Translations under genes and position numbers: made by a program
Shown: positions 22,895-25,114 of the stretch, one piece after another
Numbering within the stretch: the stretch's first letter is position 1
Layout: each line of letters begins with the position of its first letter
DNA from: a virus
Strand: one strand, 5' to 3'
IMG/VR virus record: IMGVR_UViG_3300047317_000209
Location: 1-27,661 of that record
DNA: 27,661 bases
Notes under the pieces: model-generated
Told to the model about the DNA's origin: nothing
What the model saw: only the letters and a program-made list of their open reading frames with translations
The model's database searches: none

Positions 22895-24022
22895 TCATGC
22901 GGCTATACGGGCGGTGAGCAGCCGGAGTGCGGCGGTGGCTTGCTGGGGGACGACGCCGTTGCCGAGGGCGTGTAGCTGCTGGTTCCGGGTGAGGTCGGGG
23001 ACGTCGGTGACGTGGCCGGCGGGCAGGCCCATGAGCCATTCGACGAATGCGGGGCTCAGGCGGCGTCGATCGTCAACTGCCCGTGGGGCGGGTCGGCCGG
23101 TGGCGTGCTCCCAGCGGCGGATAGCGGGGGTGAATCGGCCCCACTCGGCAGGAGCAGCCGTGCCGCATCGAGGAGCGTCATCCCGTAGCCCTCGCCGTAG
23201 GGCGTCCCGTCCGGGCGGAAGTTCGCCGTGTTCGTGGAGTCCGAGGCGGCCGGCGTCGGCAGGAGCGGCGCCAGGGAGTTCAGCGACGGCCGGACTGCGG
23301 CGCCCGGACTCGCCGACTGGTTGTTCCCGTAGGGCGTCGCCGTCGGTGTCGGCAGCAGGTGTTCCACCTCGTCTGCCAGCGTCGGGCCGTGCCCGCCGGC
23401 TTTCCGCTTGTCGGGGTGCTGCGAGCCGCCGTTGATCGCGAGTTGCGCTGTCGGCGTCTTGAGCAGTGGCGACGATGAAGAGGCGCTCGCGGCGGTGGGG
23501 AGCGCCGACCTCCGACGCGCGAACAGTGCACCACTCGACATCGAACCCGAGGTCGGCAAGGTCGGCGAGGACGGTGTCGAATCCGCGTCGAAGGTGCCCT
23601 GCGACGTTCTCAAAGATCGCGCGTCGGGGTCGTAGAACGCGAAGGGCGTCTGCGATGTACGGCCAGATGTGGCGCTCATCTTCGATTCCTTTCCGGAGGC
23701 CGGCGTTGGAGAAGGGCTGGCAGGGGTAGCCGCCGCAGACGATGTCGACGGGTTCTACGGCGGCCCAGTCGGTGGTGGTGAGGTCGCCGAGGTTGGGCAC
23801 GGTGGGCCAGTGGTGGGCGAGGATCTTCGAGGCGCCGGGGTCGATGTCGGAGACCCATGCGGTGGTCCCGCCGAAGACGGCTTCGACGGCCATGTCGAGG
23901 CCGCGGTAGCCGGAGCAGAGGGAGCCGATGCGGGGCCCGTCGTCGATGGCGAGTTGGCCAGCGGGGATGGGCGGCTCGGGTTGGGCGAGGAGCGCCGCGG
24001 CGGTGTCGAGGCTGAGGGCCAT
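22895..24022 (-). CDS. C5-cytosine DNA methyltransferase
   Basis: 375 residues from ATG 24022, seven bases after AGGAG; a GTG one codon earlier is possible. Ordered C5-MTase motifs: motif I SLCSGYRGLD at 34-43, motif IV GGYPCQPFSNAG at 97-108 with the catalytic Cys101, motif VI FENV at 137-140, motif VIII HRRERLFIV at 176-184, and motif X LGNGVVPQQA near 353-362. The variable target-recognition region spans about 190-300. It transfers a methyl group from AdoMet to cytosine C5, probably shielding phage DNA from host restriction. No partner endonuclease is adjacent. A second long ORF with its own Shine-Dalgarno lies inside it in another frame. Confidence 0.93.
   Translation of the reverse strand: MALSLDTAAALLAQPEPPIPAGQLAIDDGPRIGSLCSGYRGLDMAVEAVFGGTTAWVSDIDPGASKILAHHWPTVPNLGDLTTTDWAAVEPVDIVCGGYPCQPFSNAGLRKGIEDERHIWPYIADALRVLRPRRAIFENVAGHLRRGFDTVLADLADLGFDVEWCTVRASEVGAPHRRERLFIVATAQDADSATRDQRRLAAPRQAESRRARPDAGRRGGTPAADTDGDALREQPVGESGRRSPAVAELPGAAPADAGRLGLHEHGELPPGRDALRRGLRDDAPRCGTAAPAEWGRFTPAIRRWEHATGRPAPRAVDDRRRLSPAFVEWLMGLPAGHVTDVPDLTRNQQLHALGNGVVPQQATAALRLLTARIAA
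23056..23679 (-). CDS. Nested ORF with LLPTP repeats inside the methyltransferase gene (207 aa)
   Basis: Entirely within the methyltransferase gene, same strand, different frame. ATG 23679 is preceded by AAAGGA with 7 bases spacing, both inside methyltransferase codons. The product opens FAFYDPDARSLRTSQGTF and STPSSPTLPTSGSMSSGAL, then carries spaced repeats LLKTPTA, LLPTPTATPYGNNQ, LLPTPAASD and LLLPSG, with QHPDKRKAGGHGPTLADEVE between the first two. From memory, proteins with such Y-D-P, S-G-S-M and LLPTP landmarks are frequent next to or overlapping phage methylases in actinobacteria; I cannot verify this here. Low-complexity Ser/Pro/Thr could also arise as a shadow of Ala/Arg-rich codons, hence moderate confidence. 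Biochemical role unknown. Confidence 0.6.
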   Translation of the reverse strand: MSATSGRTSQTPFAFYDPDARSLRTSQGTFDADSTPSSPTLPTSGSMSSGALFARRRSALPTAASASSSSPLLKTPTAQLAINGGSQHPDKRKAGGHGPTLADEVEHLLPTPTATPYGNNQSASPGAAVRPSLNSLAPLLPTPAASDSTNTANFRPDGTPYGEGYGMTLLDAARLLLPSGADSPPLSAAGSTPPADPPHGQLTIDAA

Positions 24023-24168
24023 CACGCGTCTCCTGTCGGTTCATCGGTCGATCGGGTTGGCTGGGCGTCTCGCTGCCGCTCTGCGGTGCCGGGGCCCGGT
24101 TCCACGTCGGAGGGGAGTTCGGCGCTCCTAGGGGCCGTTGTGGGCCGTCTCGGGGTCATGGCGTCCAT
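24022..24168 (-). CDS. Possible 48-aa small protein upstream of methyltransferase
   Basis: ATG 24168 to TGA 24022 encodes 48 residues starting MDAMTPRRPTTAPRSAELP, polar and Pro/Arg/Asp-rich, probably unstructured. Its stop overlaps the methyltransferase ATG (TGATG), the coupling used throughout the window, and it fills the only gap between two longer genes. No Shine-Dalgarno is visible before either Met. It may be a leader peptide coupling methyltransferase translation or a chance ORF. Confidence 0.4.
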   Translation of the reverse strand: MDAMTPRRPTTAPRSAELPSDVEPGPGTAERQRDAQPTRSTDEPTGDA

Positions 24169-24196: not shown

Positions 24197-25114
24197 TCAG
24201 GCGGGGATGGTCGTCTGCGGGTAGGCGCGGTGCCGGAGGTAGACGGGCCAGTAGTCGGGATCGCCGCCCTTCGTGTCGCCGTGGCCGTGGACGGTCTTGC
24301 CGCCCCACGCGGTGTCGCGGGCCCACACGGAGCCGAGCTGCTTCACGAACGGGGCGGTCGCCGTCTCGGCGCAGTTGACGAGGAGGTCTTCGACCCAGGC
24401 GACATCCAGCGGCCGGGCGCCGGAGCCGCTTTCGCCGCCGATGATCAGCCAGTCGATGTCGACGAGGTCCAGGTTGGGCAGGGCACCGATGAGGGGTTCG
24501 GCGGAGATGAACCGCACGGCGGCCGGCGCGGCACGTAGGGCGTCGGCGCGGCGGGTGTACTCCGCGGACTCGATCGAGGTGCCCAGCCACACGTTCGGCA
24601 GGGGCCACCCGGAGCGGTGGTAGATGCCGTGCTCCAGGCCCGGGACGTAGGTCGGGCTGTGCGAGGTGGCGGCCCACTCCATGTCGGACCGGAAGTGCTC
24701 GCCGGGCGGGTGGCCGACGCCGCAGGTGCACAGGTCTCGCAGGATGCGGGCGGCGCGCTCGGGTCGCTTGGTGAGGATCTGGTAGGTGTGCTGCGGGGTG
24801 GCGGCCATGACGGCGAAGACCTGGGCCAGGAACTCCCGCGGGACGCGGGCGTGGAACAGGTCGCTCATCGAGTTCACGAAGACCCGACGCGGCTTCTTCC
24901 AGCGCAGCGGCTCGGTGAGCACGTCACCGTGGACGGTCAGGCCGAAGCCCGGGCCGGACGTGACGGGGTTGCCGTCGTTCTGGTACTTCGCGGATCCCAT
25001 GCCCTTGAGGCGGCGGGCCATGGTCAGGGCGTAGCAGTTGTCGCATCCGGGGCTGATTCGGTCGCAGCCGGTGGTGGGGTTCCAGGTCTGGTCGGTCCAC
25101 TGGATGGCGGTCAT
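24197..25114 (-). CDS. Phage Gp37/Gp68 family protein (DUF5131-like), CX6CX2C motif
   Basis: 305 residues opening MTAIQWTDQTWNPTTGCDRI with Cys17, Cys24 and Cys27 in TGCDRISPGCDNCY, the hallmark of the Gp37/Gp68 family in actinophages and related bacterial proteins. Further family landmarks: VFVNSMSDLFHARVP, YQILTKRPERA, NVWLGTSIES, AVRFISAEPLIG, IDWLIIGGESGSGARP and FVKQLGS near the C-terminus. Those line up with a TIM-barrel-like layout and a three-Cys site that may hold an iron-sulfur cluster, as in radical SAM-like enzymes; activity is not established. Start ATG 25114 follows AAAGGAACCCGAC. It lies just upstream of the methyltransferase block. Confidence 0.9.
   Translation of the reverse strand: MTAIQWTDQTWNPTTGCDRISPGCDNCYALTMARRLKGMGSAKYQNDGNPVTSGPGFGLTVHGDVLTEPLRWKKPRRVFVNSMSDLFHARVPREFLAQVFAVMAATPQHTYQILTKRPERAARILRDLCTCGVGHPPGEHFRSDMEWAATSHSPTYVPGLEHGIYHRSGWPLPNVWLGTSIESAEYTRRADALRAAPAAVRFISAEPLIGALPNLDLVDIDWLIIGGESGSGARPLDVAWVEDLLVNCAETATAPFVKQLGSVWARDTAWGGKTVHGHGDTKGGDPDYWPVYLRHRAYPQTTIPA

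Follow-up and report, generated by a model that had tools for sequence, protein, structure and literature searches.

The locus analyzed here raises the question of whether an open reading frame (ORF) lying entirely within the gene for a C5-cytosine DNA methyltransferase encodes a protein of its own and, if it does, what that protein contributes to the enzyme. The locus is found in the virus record IMGVR_UViG_3300047317_000209, of which positions 1 to 27,661 were analyzed (the whole 27,661-nucleotide stretch is hereafter the window), and the nested frame had been singled out in an initial annotation made from the letters alone. In this enzyme family the second frame proves to be nearly universal, yet it is rarely annotated. 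Here we combine conservation, chance expectations and frame-specific substitution patterns across viral and plasmid relatives to establish whether the nested frame is a gene, and use the distribution of sequence motifs among relatives to put forward an interpretation of its function.

Methods

Throughout this work, alpha denotes the methyltransferase chain and beta the product of the nested ORF, an LPTP-repeat protein read in the +1 frame. Loci were gathered with the beta of the window, with a beta from a second subfamily and then with stretches of alpha upstream of the overlap; these alpha-only queries were chosen so that the resulting set of loci would be free of beta-query bias. Chance openness of the second frame was evaluated on synonymous shuffles of alpha, in which the methyltransferase protein and its codon usage are held fixed.

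Frame-specific constraint was estimated by counting. Using a nucleotide-guided alignment, each difference was classed by its effect in both frames, yielding a dN/dS-type ratio per frame, with bootstrap over pairs. The main set comprises 72 independent nested pairs with a GC content of 55% or more, no locus being shared between pairs.

Results

Layout of the locus

The features of the methyltransferase and of its nested ORF are listed below in order of transcription.

22895..24025, minus strand: C5-cytosine DNA methyltransferase ORF (alpha), 376 aa, with motifs I-X in a single frame
23894..23926, minus strand: alpha motif I, GSLCSGYRGLD, read from the translation
23708..23734, minus strand: alpha motif IV, GGYPCQPFS, with the catalytic PCQ, read from the translation
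23687..23692, minus strand: beta Shine-Dalgarno sequence, AAAGGA, with a 7-nt spacer to the beta ATG
23056..23679, minus strand: nested ORF beta (LPTP protein), 207 aa, ATG start, +1 frame, entirely within the alpha ORF
23464..23679, minus strand: beta N-terminal part (SGRTS..FYDP..SLRTSQ..LPTSGSM..), overlapping alpha motifs VI-VIII, with constraint indicated in both frames
23603..23611, minus strand: alpha motif VI, ENV, read from the translation
23468..23506, minus strand: alpha motif VIII, GAPHRRERLFIVA, read from the translation
23171..23467, minus strand: alpha-frame linker (ADTDGD-type), which in relatives has residues without purifying selection and is always free of stops
23359..23466, minus strand: LPTP module 1, LLKTPTAQLAINGGSQHPDKRKAGGHGPTLADEVEH, of the type that occurs most often (123 loci)
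23266..23358, minus strand: LPTP module 2, LLPTPTATPYGNNQSASPGAAVRPSLNSLAP, of a type present in 27 loci
23140..23265, minus strand: LPTP module 3, LLPTPAASDSTNTANFRPDGTPYGEGYGMTLLDAARLLLPSG, read from the beta translation and module comparison
22895..23170, minus strand: alpha C-terminal part, constrained in the alpha frame and containing motifs IX and X
23012..23065, minus strand: alpha motif IX, within the C-terminal part
23058..23056, minus strand: beta stop codon TGA, falling within the L-S codons of alpha motif IX
22937..22975, minus strand: alpha motif X, within the C-terminal part

The methyltransferase ORF starts with GTG, its second codon being ATG, and direct reading of the translation places motifs I, IV (PCQ), VI (ENV), VIII, IX and X in order in a single frame. 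The chain matches Pfam DNA_methylase (PF00145, 1.8e-34) and PHROG 363 (5e-71), and scores above the family cut-off of TIGR00675. Upstream of the methyltransferase, a gene at 24197-25114 (minus strand) encodes a DUF5131 protein (Pfam 3e-84, PHROG 2045), and elsewhere in the window there are long antisense and other-frame ORFs of the sort typical of GC-rich DNA.

The nested ORF described in the initial annotation, with 207 codons and an ATG seven nucleotides past AAAGGA, is present within the methyltransferase gene, and its product contains the repeats that had been listed for it: LLKTPTA at residue 72, LLPTPTA at residue 108, LLPTPAA at residue 139 and a degenerate LLLPSG near residue 175. The Shine-Dalgarno sequence is spelled by two rare alpha codons, AAA GGA (K112-G113). 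The first ~70 codons of beta overlap alpha from just upstream of motif VI through motif VIII, and the remaining codons overlap the variable alpha region between motifs VIII and IX.

The association of LPTP-type proteins with phage methylases, mentioned in that annotation, is supported. A profile search with the 207-residue product returned PHROG_1008 ('DNA methyltransferase') at 7e-16 over 151 positions (profile positions 63-213 of 329). The same profile is matched by the C-terminus of alpha, at positions 103-320, and by 24 of 25 relatives. Against Pfam and NCBIfam the 207-residue beta gave no match, and hence no HNH or LAGLIDADG domain, and searching the PDB with a profile of the LPTP family gave no hits.

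Conservation and coding potential of the second frame

The length of the ORF is weak evidence for a gene, since 25% of the synonymous alpha shuffles also leave the 207 codons free of stops. This unremarkable length (P about 0.25) is what would be expected of a shadow ORF, a second frame that yields no protein and is open, and seemingly conserved, only by virtue of the conserved, GC-rich methyltransferase frame; many long spurious ORFs in the GC-rich window and the overlap of part of the beta N-terminus with strongly conserved alpha motifs are also in keeping with it. Relatives combining an intact methylase with a broken second frame were looked for among the 159 viral loci retrieved by alpha-only queries, and 157 of these were found to keep the beta N-terminal (LPTP) profile in the +1 frame; the other two both end at a contig edge, and this test, named as a refuting one in the initial annotation, did not refute the proposal. 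The GC content of these loci spans 41-75%, and conservation of beta extends to those with 41-45% GC.

Several signals internal to the overlap agree with this conservation. Third-position GC is highest in the alpha frame as far as motif VI, then in +1 across the LPTP stretch, and once more in the alpha frame at motifs IX-X, both in the window and in nearly all other nested loci. The +1 frame is open across the overlap in 116 of 122 nested loci (53.5 expected), and a start codon preceded by a Shine-Dalgarno sequence with at least four matched bases is found in 98 of the 122 (20 expected). Just upstream of motif VI, the alpha codon for L, I or V before R-P ends in A or T in all 92 GC-rich loci with a long beta N-terminus, compared to a background rate of 0.12 and to 26 of 116 loci in a control subfamily with a short N-terminus, and in 90 of the 92 this A/T-ending codon is followed by CGA, spelling F/Y-D-P in the +1 frame. 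The rare alpha codons CT[T/A]-CGA are used because the beta residues F/Y-D-P force them, and the rare AAA GGA codons of the window are consistent with the same picture.

The second frame is protein-coding and selected, has a conserved start signal and is coupled to alpha in nearly all relatives, and it is on account of this comparative evidence, rather than of its length, that the ORF stands far above chance. The proposal that one DNA sequence specifies two proteins is hence upheld by comparison across relatives.

Frame-specific constraint along the gene

The 72 nested pairs reveal a division of constraint along the gene. Ratios over motifs I-VI are 0.22 in the alpha frame and 0.81 in the +1 frame; over the overlap with motifs VI-VIII, 0.31 and 0.62 [0.56-0.68]; over the LPTP stretch, 1.40 [1.24-1.60] and 0.19 [0.16-0.23]; and over motifs IX-X, 0.20 and 0.98. 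An earlier, first set of pairs showed the same pattern, and low-GC nested loci agree, with ratios over the LPTP stretch of 0.08 in +1 and 1.60 in alpha. The alpha ratio above 1 in this stretch is the value that the method yields for an unselected frame overlapping a selected one, and we do not take it as positive selection.

Over motifs VI-VIII the constraint on the +1 frame is modest (0.62, against 0.81 in motifs I-VI) and, given that the baseline of the method for an unselected frame is about 0.6 to 1.0, the claim for this overlap leans also on the open-frame and start-signal tests reported above. Taken together, these comparisons indicate that motifs VI-VIII are constrained in both frames, and motifs I-VI and IX-X in the enzyme frame only. 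The simultaneous constraint on both frames posited in the initial annotation therefore holds for the part of beta over motifs VI-VIII and fails for the LPTP modules, which are constrained in +1 and not in the enzyme frame.

This substitution pattern also bears on the shadow ORF. Substitutions in the LPTP stretch fall on +1 third positions while the alpha frame is unconstrained, the GC frame plot moves to +1 and, in split phages described below, the same ORF is an annotated gene that contains motifs IX-X. Based on the substitution pattern, the GC frame plot and the low-GC relatives, we reject a shadow ORF, to which we assign a negligible probability.

In the region separating motifs VIII and IX, the alpha frame of the 122 nested loci has 0 stops, where 133 would be expected if beta alone were of consequence. 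The same region of the alpha frame in split loci contains 110 stops versus 122 expected, and the stop counts of the third frame are as expected in nested and split loci alike. Alpha remains stop-free even though its residues are neutral, and is thus translated through the stretch as a linker whose openness is selected.

Nested, split and motif-IX-bearing relatives

In the split phages ArV1, Samy, phiBT1 and Zaka, alpha ends just past motif VIII and the +1 ORF spans the LPTP modules and continues to motifs IX-X. The window, Darolandstone, CheeseTouch and Fushigi instead have motifs IX-X in the alpha frame, with beta terminating ahead of them. Both beta and the C-terminus of alpha match PHROG_1008 because split +1 ORFs join the LPTP modules to motifs IX-X.

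Annotation of these genes is uneven. The nested form is without annotation in the actinophage records examined, and the second frame is missing from the annotation of CheeseTouch (gp88), Fushigi (gp80) and Picard; split forms frequently appear in records as a pair of methylases (Zaka, ArV1), and the second frame is named as a second 'DNA methylase' in Zaka, ArV1, K1H and Bloom. The phiBT1 product gp9.1 is annotated as possibly inactive; its motifs IX-X lie in an unannotated +1 ORF (L004 1988-2917), and the phiBT1 enzyme may be complete as two chains.

A further layout is seen in C72C1, in the Paenibacillus phages Picard and Bloom, in the Escherichia coli phage K1H and in a Lacticaseibacillus (L. 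paracasei) and a Bacteroides (B. finegoldii) plasmid. Alpha in these relatives comprises motifs I-VIII plus X, and the +1 ORF nested within it carries an LTW..SxPRT..WPTP region together with motif IX; a motif IX within beta is found in loci L388, L389, L306 and L395-L399. Profile-profile comparison (hhalign) links the beta family of the window to these motif-IX-bearing betas (97.3%, E 1.7e-11), which also match PHROG_1008. A blastn search with a relative in E. coli genomes yielded only two short matches. The arrangement is old, being present in phages or plasmids from Actinomycetota, Bacillota, Bacteroidota and Escherichia, and the birth of the gene by overprinting within a phage, as initially suggested, is conjectural.

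One-chain HhaI/SPRI-like phage C5 methyltransferases have a +1 ORF of a different kind at the same place (L390:1943-2422, L394:2099-2557 and L391:1931-2356), with the sequence LLSxVLETGxxxQRYYLSxKACxGILRRAEKRGKKLP, which a Vibrio phage and an environmental myovirus have in similar form. The L390 ORF matches phrog_16143, and these ORFs may represent a second overlapping-gene family in this enzyme class.

Movement of modules and motifs between frames

The LPTP array was resolved into 915 modules with a median length of 33 aa and 47 types present in five or more loci. These modules, exchangeable units of a few tens of residues, sit between motifs VIII and IX, and identical module types occur in either frame. 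Some nested loci, which we term nested-b, have one to three of the modules in beta and the remainder in alpha. Ratios in the first part of nested-b loci are 0.12 in +1 and 0.98 in alpha; beyond the beta stop, they are 0.19 in alpha and 1.02 in +1. As judged from these substitution patterns, constraint follows the modules into whichever frame reads them.

On a tree of alpha built outside the overlap, which has few columns and many open forks, nested and split forms interconvert with at least 17 parsimony changes, about 7 of them forced by supported branches. The comparison indicates that modules and motifs IX-X pass between chains repeatedly, as single indels would allow. Other configurations were also observed. 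In L056, L057 and L072 alpha is joined in-frame to the LPTP modules and motifs IX-X are in the third frame, due to either rearrangements or assembly errors, and L068:2362-5277 encodes its methyltransferase in a single frame, with a pair of LPTP modules placed between motifs VIII and IX; a pattern search did not find the beta N-terminal motif in this locus, which offers a naturally single-chain form for comparison.

Such frequent interconversion lends some plausibility to the idea that the LPTP frame of the window is a decaying relic of a split ancestor, left behind after a frameshift returned motifs IX-X to alpha. The +1 constraint in nested loci (0.19 [0.16-0.23]), however, differs little from the value for split loci (0.11 [0.08-0.16]), with alpha being neutral there, the start codon and Shine-Dalgarno sequence persist, and no disabled +1 frame with an intact alpha was found among the close relatives of the window, making a relic highly improbable. 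Programmed frameshifting, in which ribosomes would switch from alpha to +1 past motif VIII, translate the LPTP modules there and then return to the alpha frame, would make one continuous chain with the modules lying between motifs VIII and IX, much as in the alpha of nested-b loci. It would nonetheless require two shifts in nested loci; inspection by eye revealed no shared slippery heptamer before the alpha stops of split loci, the start signal and N-terminal residues are selected, as predicted by internal initiation, and alpha stays stop-free across the region. We therefore consider frameshifting very unlikely.

Structure predictions

AlphaFold predicts beta alone with moderate confidence (mean pLDDT 62), and predicts for the alpha of a nested-b relative (L160) a C5 methyltransferase fold close to M.HhaI. 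In the natural fusion of L160, the linker and module stretch is predicted to be largely disordered, with no folded recognition domain seen. This predicted disorder neither supports nor excludes the folding of beta on DNA or on alpha.

Discussion

The nested ORF is best explained as a real protein with its own start, most likely (with a probability of about 0.7) the second subunit of a two-polypeptide C5-cytosine methyltransferase, as suggested by sequence comparison. Beta would be translated from its own internal start within the methyltransferase mRNA. Alpha carries catalytic motifs I-VIII and, in the variant of the window, also motifs IX-X, connected through a freely varying linker. Beta consists of an N-terminal piece followed by LPTP modules of ~33 residues, placed where one-chain enzymes have their target recognition region, and would probably bind alpha and help in DNA recognition, the simplest candidate for what the neutral linker of alpha does not provide. 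We infer such a contribution because the modules stand between motifs VIII and IX when they are in alpha; beta would be needed for activity, and the modules would recognize DNA. As a counterpoint to the subunit reading, the beta of the window is without motif IX, so that its alpha could be a complete enzyme alone.

The presence of motifs I-X in a single alpha chain and the lack of methyltransferase motifs in nested betas would fit an independent overprinted protein that acts apart from the enzyme, for instance on host restriction, or that regulates it. This is close to the modulator or anti-restriction role initially suggested for the product. Beta is, however, strictly coupled to alpha, motifs IX-X are fused to the LPTP modules in split loci, and in nested-b loci LPTP modules lie inside alpha and are constrained there. 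Since motifs IX-X and LPTP modules switch chains in relatives, an integral subunit is likelier than a free modulator, and we view an independent role as unlikely.

Within the subunit reading, a more tentative possibility, which we hold at somewhat less than even odds, is that the LPTP modules are frame-portable target-recognition cassettes of 33 residues: phages would change methylation specificity by exchanging them and, when read from a second, nested gene, they would act in trans on the catalytic chain, whose own frame there encodes a neutral linker. If so, a single stretch of DNA would serve as a spacer in one protein and as a specificity array in another. If beta is indeed a subunit, the annotations of many phage enzymes, and probably their clones as well, correspond to proteins that are incomplete or have the wrong boundaries. 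The relatives also constitute a natural series (beta with motif IX, beta with motifs IX-X, beta with modules only and modules in both chains) that allows one to ask how a functional region moves between overlapping frames with both proteins still working.

Comparison with known systems

The two-polypeptide enzyme M.EcoHK31I has the recognition sequence YGGCCR, and its smaller gene was reportedly described, in a 1995 paper, as being read in another frame inside the larger one. M.EcoHK31I is a naturally split enzyme (PMC3439449) and, together with M.AquI, a two-polypeptide C5 enzyme; its alpha has motifs I-VIII and X and its smaller polypeptide motif IX, while in M.AquI alpha has motifs I-VIII and the second chain motifs IX-X (PMC3404938). 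Like M.EcoHK31I, the window has a second ORF nested in alpha in another frame, with a selected start and selected residues; unlike it, the beta of the window lacks motif IX, alpha having both IX and X, and bears an ordered array of LPTP modules. The layout of M.EcoHK31I, as described, is shared by the relatives in C72C1, Picard, Bloom, K1H and the two plasmids. We thus do not file the beta of the window, which has no motif IX, as M.EcoHK31I-type, but it probably works like one and is homologous to betas of that layout. The split relatives phiBT1, ArV1, Samy and Zaka, with motifs IX-X in the second chain, resemble M.AquI, from which the window differs by having these motifs in alpha. It likewise departs from the PHROG_1008 profile, which has motifs IX-X at its C-terminus, in that its nested ORF stops before them.

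An out-of-frame HNH endonuclease inserted in a phage methylase has been described as the ShiLan domain (PMC11855218). The window similarly has an out-of-frame protein in a phage methylase whose own frame stays open. The ShiLan domain, though, is a homing insertion of patchy occurrence that contains an HNH domain and lacks a detectable Shine-Dalgarno sequence, whereas the LPTP ORF is near-universal, has no HNH match and is preceded by a Shine-Dalgarno sequence. With no HNH and a distribution that is not patchy, a homing insertion of this type was rejected for the LPTP ORF.

Multispecific phage C5 methyltransferases of the SPR/phi3T type carry short, exchangeable target-recognition modules between motifs VIII and IX of the same chain. 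The LPTP modules are likewise short, exchangeable and placed between these motifs, but most of them are in a second frame and their role in recognition is putative. Relative to the literature found, the novel elements of this system are a nested beta without motif IX, constraint that hops between frames along one gene, a linker that is neutral but stop-free, and modules that stay under selection whichever of the two frames they occupy.
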